This document shows positions 38,826 through 41,413 of a stretch of 64,000 bases of DNA, one piece after another. A program made the translations under genes and the position numbers. Under the pieces are notes generated by a model. It searched no databases, was not told where the DNA came from, and saw only the letters and a program-made list of their open reading frames with translations. Positions within the stretch are counted from its first letter, which is position 1. Each line of letters starts with the position of its first letter. Source of the stretch: an uncultured Ignatzschineria sp. (GTDB taxonomy: Bacteria > Pseudomonadota > Gammaproteobacteria > Cardiobacteriales > Wohlfahrtiimonadaceae); assembly GCA_945639195.1 (NCBI GenBank), contig CALZEE010000001.1, positions 310,001 through 374,000 on the forward strand, in the 5' to 3' direction.

Positions 38826-38875
38826 AACGCAGTTTATAGATGCATTATTGTGCCCCGAGGATAGAGAATTATAAA

Positions 38876-41413
38876 ATGGCGATTGTCGATATAAAGAAAG
38901 TTGTTCTTGCAACTAGCTTATTGCTAGGATCTGCAGCATTAGCGCAAAAATATGAAGTGAAAGATATTCGAATTGAAGGTCTTGAGCAGATTAATCCTGG
39001 AGCCGTATTTACGACACTAGGATTAGATCCAGATGCCGCAGTGCAAAGAGGGACGGTTCAAGAACTCGTCGAAAAACTCTACTCTACAGGGCTCTTTAAA
39101 GATGTCACTGTTAAGACACAAAATGGTCGCATCTTAGGGCGTACAAGACCGAAGTCTATAACGGTTAAAGTTGCACGACAAAAGCCGGTCTCAGCGGTAA
39201 GACAAGGTGGTGCATTTGGTAATATTCGTACTGAAGCACAAGAGCCTGAGGTTGAGTATGTTTACGAAGAGATACCATGTACTATGGATGATCCGCGTTG
39301 CCAGCCAAGAGAATCTACCGTAAGAACGGATCTTGTGATTGAACTTGCGGAATACCCTGTATTATCAAAAGTAACTTTCACTGGTAATAAAGACCTCAAA
39401 GAGAAGCAACTTACAGAGATTATTCAAGCGGCTAATTTAAAACCAGGTGAAACGTTAAGAGATTCATCGCTCTCTACGGCAACTAATAACTTATTAAAAG
39501 CCTATGAAACGCGTGGTAAATACGCGATTAATGTTGAATCACGAATTGTTGAACTGCCACGTAATAGAGCTGAAGTACAATTTGCTATTTCAGAAGGTCG
39601 TACGGGGCAAATTAAAAAGATTAACTTTACAGGTAATGATGCGATTTCAGATAGAACGCTCTTAAGACAGATGCGTGTTCGCGAATCTGGCTTCAAGACG
39701 ATTTTCTCATCAGGCGATCGATATGACCCTTATACGATTCAAGATGAGCTTGATAAAGTTCAAGAGTATTATCGTAACCATGGTTTCTTGAAGGCAGAAG
39801 TAAACTACTCGAGTGCAACTATTAGCCCAAATCAAGATACGATCTATCTTGATATCGATATCAATGAAGGTCAAAAATATCATTTCGGCCAATTCTCTGT
39901 TGTCGGAAACTACCCAAGTGTCGAGCGTGAAGAGCTCATGTCTCTTGTGAAGATTGAAGATGGGGATCTTTATCGCGCGAAGACTGTCAATGATAGTATT
40001 AAGGCTATTCAGGATCGTTTAGGAAATGAGGGTTATGCGCAGGCGCGTGTTAATGCGATTCCTAAAATGAATGAGGCAGACGGTATCGTAAGCTATACAT
40101 TTGCGATTGACCAAGGGGAGCGTGTATACGTGAACCGTATTAATATCGAAGGGAATGAGCGTACGCGTGATGAAGTATTCCGCCGAGAATTAAGACAGAT
40201 GGAAGGTGGACGATTTGTCGCAAGTGATATCGAGAGATCGCGCGTTAGAATCCAACGTTTAAGTCACGTAGAAGATGTTGATGTATCAACACAACCGGTG
40301 AGTGATGGCGTGGTGGATTTAACCTATAACGTTAAAGAGCGTAGCGCAGGATCGATTACCTTTGGTCTTAGCTACGGTATGGATAGTAAGTTTGGTATTA
40401 ATGCGGGCTTTAACCAACCGAACTTTATGGGAACAGGGCATGAATTAAACGTTCAGGCTGAGACCAATAAGAGCGGAAGTTATTACGGTATTGATTACAT
40501 GAATCCATACTTCACTAAAGATGGTTTAAGTGCAGGGATTTCACTCGGTTACAGCAAGCAAAAGCATGACTACGATGATACCGGTAACTATATTGCCGAT
40601 GGTATTACACTCATGTTTAACTTTGGTTATCCAGTGAGTGAATATACGACTATTCGTGCAGGCGTGGGTTATGAGCGTTTAAATCTTAAGACAACACACT
40701 CTTCACCAAAAGAAGTTGTAGAATTTATTAGTGAACAGAGCTGTGGTGGTGATGCATGGAATTGTGCTGAAGACACACCACTCTACAAGAGCAAGCGTAA
40801 CTTATATCGTGCGAATCTTGGAATCTACAGAGATACACGAAATAGAACAATCTTTGCTTCTGAAGGAACGCTCAATAGTGCAACGATCTCAGGAACGCTC
40901 CCAGGTTCAACAGACCGTTTCTACAAGCTTCACTTGAAACATCAAAGCTACTACCCGTTAACAGATGATGAGGATTATGTATTCTCGCTTCGTGGGGATG
41001 TTTTAGCTGGTTGGGGTTATGGTTCTACTAAAGATTTACCTTTCTATGAAAACTTCTACGCCGGTGGTCTTGGAACGGTTCGAGGTTATCGTGGAAGCTC
41101 TATTGGTCCAAAATATTCAAATGGGGACTCAATGGGGGGCGCATTACGCTACAATGCGAGTGCCGAAGTAATTATGAAAGTTCCTGGTTTTGCAGATAAT
41201 AATGATGTGCGTTGGAGTATTTATCTTGATGCAGGTAACGTAACACCAAGCCCAAGTAAGCGTGACTTTAGTGATACACGATACTCTACGGGTATGAGTT
41301 TCGTATGGTTATCACCCCTTGGACCATTGGCATTCTCTTATGCAAAACCGTTTAAAACAAAGGATGGAGATCGTGAGCAGAAATTCCAGTTCTCGATTGG
41401 TATCCCTTATTAA
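38876..41413 (+). CDS. bamA: Outer membrane protein assembly factor BamA
   Basis: The essential Omp85 insertase that folds beta-barrel proteins into the outer membrane. It has 845 residues from the ATG at 38876 (AGAGAA 7 nt upstream), with a signal peptide (about 1-23, ALAQ cleavage region). Five POTRA domains are recognisable from VKDIRIEGLEQI, SKVTFTGNK, GQIKKINFTGND, HFGQFSVVGN and VYVNRINIEGN. The 16-strand barrel contains FYAGGLGTVRGYRGSSIGP (VRGY/F motif) and ends in a terminal aromatic (IGIPY). POTRA1 carries an unusual insertion of about 60 residues (about 84-148) with two cysteines, Cys135 and Cys142. Mature BamA in E. coli has no such insert. Confidence 0.97.
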   Translation: MAIVDIKKVVLATSLLLGSAALAQKYEVKDIRIEGLEQINPGAVFTTLGLDPDAAVQRGTVQELVEKLYSTGLFKDVTVKTQNGRILGRTRPKSITVKVARQKPVSAVRQGGAFGNIRTEAQEPEVEYVYEEIPCTMDDPRCQPRESTVRTDLVIELAEYPVLSKVTFTGNKDLKEKQLTEIIQAANLKPGETLRDSSLSTATNNLLKAYETRGKYAINVESRIVELPRNRAEVQFAISEGRTGQIKKINFTGNDAISDRTLLRQMRVRESGFKTIFSSGDRYDPYTIQDELDKVQEYYRNHGFLKAEVNYSSATISPNQDTIYLDIDINEGQKYHFGQFSVVGNYPSVEREELMSLVKIEDGDLYRAKTVNDSIKAIQDRLGNEGYAQARVNAIPKMNEADGIVSYTFAIDQGERVYVNRINIEGNERTRDEVFRRELRQMEGGRFVASDIERSRVRIQRLSHVEDVDVSTQPVSDGVVDLTYNVKERSAGSITFGLSYGMDSKFGINAGFNQPNFMGTGHELNVQAETNKSGSYYGIDYMNPYFTKDGLSAGISLGYSKQKHDYDDTGNYIADGITLMFNFGYPVSEYTTIRAGVGYERLNLKTTHSSPKEVVEFISEQSCGGDAWNCAEDTPLYKSKRNLYRANLGIYRDTRNRTIFASEGTLNSATISGTLPGSTDRFYKLHLKHQSYYPLTDDEDYVFSLRGDVLAGWGYGSTKDLPFYENFYAGGLGTVRGYRGSSIGPKYSNGDSMGGALRYNASAEVIMKVPGFADNNDVRWSIYLDAGNVTPSPSKRDFSDTRYSTGMSFVWLSPLGPLAFSYAKPFKTKDGDREQKFQFSIGIPY

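Follow-up and report, generated by a model that had tools for sequence, protein, structure and literature searches.

A genus-specific insert in POTRA1 of Ignatzschineria BamA adjoins the strand equivalent to the SurA-docking edge of E. coli BamA

Introduction

BamA is an essential outer-membrane assembly protein. Long loops are known in the POTRA domains of cyanobacterial Omp85 and Toc75, where they are functionally meaningful; they occupy another domain and another position than the insert described in this study. The SurA protein of E. coli contains two PPIase domains.

The handover of client proteins from SurA to the BAM complex has recently been resolved in E. coli (PMC11970506, PMC11366764). 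According to these two reports, the N-terminal strand of SurA (Q23-V28) pairs with residues V75-R79 of BamA. The former also describes a salt bridge between BamA R64 and SurA D41 (PMC11970506), and in the latter proline changes in the docking strand, or deletion of SurA residues 23-28, are described as harming the E. coli outer membrane (PMC11366764). In a survey of Omp85 proteins published in 2014, POTRA domains of more than 125 aa were filtered out (PMC4104836).

In the present study we analysed a window of 64,000 nucleotides from an Ignatzschineria genome of 2.45 Mb (G000), whose bamA gene encodes a first POTRA domain (POTRA1) with a large insert. When compared with the E. coli BAM-SurA holo complex (PDB 9hg5, 8pz1, 8pz2), the BamA of this genus displays a like domain order and a like beta2 edge strand, and a SurA with an N-terminal strand is also encoded. 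The differences concern (i) 67 extra residues directly past the docking strand, (ii) glutamate (E66) at the position of R64, and (iii) the SurA of the family, which has one PPIase domain. Judged by titles, no report of the insert was found in the literature on Ignatzschineria outer-membrane proteins, BamA/POTRA insertions, Omp85 diversity, species-specific POTRA1/SurA, or single-PPIase SurA.

Results

The bamA gene (positions 38876..41413 of the window, + strand) encodes a protein of 845 aa, and its reading frame is intact; it extends over 38840-41413 if counted from the first ATG, and the translation used here was taken from the MAIV start at 38876. Pfam analysis of the translation revealed five POTRA domains (five PF07244 stretches) followed by a C-terminal Omp85 barrel (PF01103, E 1.8e-74, residues 516-843), and the helices and strands of all five POTRA domains were present in an AlphaFold2 model. 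By eye, the open reading frame before bamA resembles rseP, and those after it resemble, in this order, skp, lpxD, fabZ, lpxA and lpxB. The five closest BamA loci among the named genomes all belong to Ignatzschineria (78-85% identity over the full length).

The presence of extra residues in POTRA1, as proposed in the original prediction, was borne out by an alignment of 30 BamAs (9 from the genus, 20 from a search for relatives and one from a named betaproteobacterial MAG; L031-L035, among the named loci, correspond to genomes that the 9 include and were counted once). The stretch from D76 to the end of beta3 comprises 83 residues in the window BamA and 82-85 residues in the 9 genus members, versus exactly 16 residues in each of the 21 BamAs from outside the genus; the net insert is thus +67 in the window BamA and +66 to +69 across the genus, and the canonical short POTRA1 beta2-beta3 hairpin is not found in the window protein. 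The alignments place the insert at residues I86-D152 (39131..39331, + strand), slightly downstream of the 39110-39320 initially given for it, and in E. coli numbering between D82/T83 and L84, as indicated by the alignment with the PDB sequence. It is preceded by the beta1-alpha-alpha-beta2 part of POTRA1 with the start of the hairpin turn (Q24-G84; 38945..39127, + strand), which was aligned with insert-less BamAs and with E. coli BamA, and followed by beta3 (L153-P161; 39332..39358, + strand), which aligns to E. coli L84 onward and was predicted as a strand in both models described below. The segment FKDVTVK corresponds to F74-K80 of the window BamA. The beta2 strand V77-T81 (39104..39118, + strand) is, by the PDB alignment, the equivalent of E. 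coli V75-R79, i.e. of the edge reported to dock SurA (PMC11970506, PMC11366764); in the genus this strand is retained, being both aligned and predicted as a strand in both models, and the insert starts (I86) four residues after it.

The two cysteines originally noticed in the insert were correctly placed at residues 135 and 142. They delimit a loop, C135-x6-C142 (CTMDDPRC; 39278..39301, + strand), and both are present in 9/9 genus members and in 0/21 other BamAs; the spacing is C-x6-C in seven of the genus members and C-x8-C in two. The composition had been described as rich in Gln, Arg and Glu, and this holds for Arg and Glu (9 and 7 of 67 residues) but not for Gln, whose 4 residues are outnumbered by Val (7), Thr (6) and Pro (6). 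Charge is unevenly spread over the insert in all 9 genus members: the half before E120 is basic, with 6-9 Lys/Arg and 0-2 acidic residues, and the half from E120 on is acidic, with 9-10 acidic and 2-3 basic residues.

Analysis of the distribution of the insert supported the view that it is lineage-specific. It was detected in 9/9 Ignatzschineria genomes searched and in 0/21 aligned BamAs from outside the genus. In sister genera of the same family (L010-L017), whose BamAs are 50-57% identical over residues 152-845, the hairpin is canonical and without insert in the 7 of 8 sequences that cover it; the same-family genomes G013 (a BamA fragment without POTRA1) and G015 (starting past the insertion point) fell outside this judgement. 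An insert-less POTRA1-2 profile (A2) was also run on 370 same-class genomes, 362 of which matched. Besides the genome of the window, 361 genomes matched, and the insert was found in none of the 326 that were readable across the insertion point, a hand count made from the spans of the profile matches (length within 3 residues of the profile) rather than from each alignment. The insert is therefore not common across gammaproteobacteria, an alternative raised at the outset. Four genomes (G072, G244, G376, G397), in which the insertion point lies at a contig end or a frame break, and a further 31 that matched are not among the 326. When the insert columns were removed before maximum-likelihood tree building, the 9 carriers grouped with full support, beside an insert-less sister genus. 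This tree gives a single gain of the insert, on the stem of the genus.

Some of the bamA genes from other genomes were interrupted. In G072 (G072:C15:57685-58202) a frame break is located within the same POTRA1 hairpin region, and two other genomes with the same genus label (g54) gave high-scoring profile matches. In G019, a member of the same order, bamA is broken into a pair of adjoining open frames of 468 and 345 aa (G019:C1:278754-281005), which probably reflects a sequencing error or a frameshift in an essential gene.

BamA and POTRA domains are well known, and the insert is without a relative in its own genome, in same-class genomes, in the PDB and in Pfam. Up to E 10, the insert had no second match in its own genome and 0 matches in the PDB, and Pfam likewise returned 0 matches for the inserts of the 9 genus members. 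When a profile of the insert was compared with 377 same-class genomes (G000 included), the one strong match was the window itself; 36 other genomes gave only weak matches with bit scores of 19 or less, the best of them (E 0.003) in a frame with stops. A paralogous or mobile origin was rejected on the basis of these searches. Duplication of beta3 was also considered as the source of the insert, as SITVKVARQKPV resembled a second beta3, yet it scored no better than shuffled inserts (p 0.105 to 0.78 with the beta3 profile; 5 of 9 genus sequences, four profile widths), and no DNA repeat was detected across SITVKVARQKPV; this origin was rejected.

The insert is under purifying selection and evolves like a functional domain. 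Among the 9 genus members (Nei-Gojobori proportions, residues 85-151) its pN/pS was 0.23 at pS 0.70, and the values elsewhere were 0.16 for the POTRA1 core, 0.20 for POTRA2, 0.22 for POTRA4 and 0.11-0.12 for POTRA3 and POTRA5, in a comparison with nearly saturated synonymous sites (pS about 0.7). In the alignment of the insert, 37 of 69 columns are invariant in the 9 sequences, and the invariant blocks include RILGR, FGNIRTE, PE-x-EY-x-YEE and DPRC; two small length changes occur inside the insert. This number of invariant columns, together with the low pN/pS, excludes an origin by frameshift or chance.

The fold was predicted in two AlphaFold2 runs (POTRA1-5 and POTRA1-2), both of which rest on 7 sequences, since a search for more in viral_contigs returned none. 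Both models contain two strands in the insert: predicted strand A (S94-Q102; 39155..39181, + strand) in the basic half, with block mean pLDDT of 61 and 75, and predicted strand B (V126-P134; 39251..39277, + strand) in the acidic half, with 62 and 74 for the block covering its first part. A short helical turn at residues 140-142 in the Cys loop was also predicted in both models (block mean pLDDT 59 and 77). Confidence was low to moderate (pTM 0.48 and 0.46), with parts of POTRA1 below pLDDT 50 and residues 108-121 mostly below this value in both models, and a fold comparison of the model matches BamA over its whole length, which is uninformative on the insert itself. The suspicion that the insert has no predicted fold is countered by the two strands predicted twice, only weakly given this modest confidence. 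A disulphide between Cys135 and Cys142 that closes the loop is plausible, since neither cysteine varies within the genus and 9/9 of its genomes encode DsbB. A second, weaker DsbB-like match was observed in 2 of these 9 (G000:C2:348499-348741 and G004:C1:1062253-1062495).

SurA is present in 18/18 genomes of the family (L101-L118). In the 9 genus SurAs, 9 of the first 10 aligned positions (ARxGTVDGIA) are invariant versus 156/297 of the rest (Fisher p 0.02). The test was post hoc, and the segment was also taken 8 and 12 positions wide (p 0.07 for the genus at width 8). The 6 SurAs of sister genus g2 displayed the opposite trend (3/10 N-terminal positions invariant versus 207/288, p 0.009); the test thus covers two clades, the segment adjoins the signal peptide, and close kinship among the genus members inflates conservation. 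At least 10 invariant columns were counted in 8 of 285 twelve-column windows of the genus SurA, the N-terminal one among them. The conservation of the SurA N-terminus that matches the docking idea is therefore suggestive, and because the insert was gained only once there are no independent repeats for a co-evolution test. Had the arm replaced SurA, the genus should have lost the docking strand of SurA, but this strand is conserved.

The position of E. coli R64 is occupied by glutamate (Glu66) in 9/9 genus members, so that the classic contact with SurA D41 must differ. This position also varies in several insert-less relatives in the BamA alignment, and for this reason E66 is not specific evidence.

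Discussion

The original prediction was that the insert may be a docking element, POTRA1 being in contact with the Sec/chaperone side of the pathway. Our analysis gave no support for the Sec side; the known partner of POTRA1 is SurA. The idea of a docking element is made more plausible, short of proof, since the insert lies next to the very strand on which SurA docks in E. coli.

The reading we favour, while giving it somewhat less than an even chance, is that the insert forms a genus-specific beta-arm that would extend or regulate the SurA docking edge. In a BamA that is ordinary in other respects, such an arm would grow from the beta2-beta3 hairpin of POTRA1, with its tip probably closed by the Cys135-Cys142 disulphide in the oxidising periplasm; it would widen or regulate the site at which the SurA N-terminal strand docks, and might touch SurA, or the client of SurA, at handover to BAM. 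A role at the docking site appears the likeliest because the arm leaves the domain four residues past the SurA-receiving edge strand. From sequences and models we infer the arm fold, the disulphide and the SurA contact, and this reading suggests that the handover of outer-membrane proteins to the assembly machine is altered in the genus. In its most elaborate form, namely a disulphide-stapled arm that has rebuilt the SurA edge, elsewhere almost invariant, within the handover interface, has co-evolved with the SurA N-terminal strand and possibly acts as a redox-sensitive or cis-competing gate, the proposal is doubtful.

The conservation of the insert could also reflect docking of another partner (a Bam lipoprotein, a periplasmic protease or chaperone, or peptidoglycan), with the proximity of the SurA strand being incidental. 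The charged halves would suit binding, hairpin tips are accessible, and the presence of BamB in the genus makes a changed BAM neighbourhood possible; the SurA N-terminus, however, shows the expected matching constraint, and we regard such a partner as somewhat unlikely. Conservation of the SurA docking strand likewise speaks against an arrangement in which strand A lies on the free beta2 edge and competes in cis with the SurA strand, so that BAM itself gates SurA. It is true that a short turn separates strand A (S94-Q102) from beta2 (F74-T81) and that the two strands are similarly long in both models, yet we consider this cap improbable.

A loop that has no particular function, became fixed a single time in the genus ancestor and persists only under the constraint of not disturbing folding, would agree with the single gain on the tree, with the low-confidence middle (most of residues 108-121 below pLDDT 50 in both models) and with the two small internal length changes. 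It fits poorly with 37/69 invariant columns, FGNIRTE, PE-x-EY-x-YEE and DPRC included, and with pN/pS of 0.23, measured where synonymous sites are almost saturated; faster drift than this is usual in spacer loops. We therefore judge a merely tolerated loop unlikely, and retain the beta-arm at the docking edge as the preferred reading.

The near-constant-length hairpin of an essential protein has thus been shown able to take a large insert. A natural BamA with a conserved arm at the docking strand provides a ready-made variant with which to probe how fixed the interface with SurA is, and if widening or gating of it is possible. The POTRA1 of the window is about 137 aa long, and a filter like that described for the 2014 survey (PMC4104836) would discard such a domain.

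The open frames of the family SurAs are about 330-350 aa long, and a single PPIase domain was detected by Pfam in 4/4 SurAs scanned, one from each of four genera. By eye, the domain that is kept resembles P2. The P1 domain, which moves in the BAM-SurA structures of E. coli, may thus be missing family-wide. In the barrel part of BamA a second cysteine pair was observed (SCGGDAWNC; window positions 40742-40765, residues about 623-630), which is absent at this place in 14 of the aligned BamAs and is kept, with slight shifts in spacing, in the other 16, all from the family.
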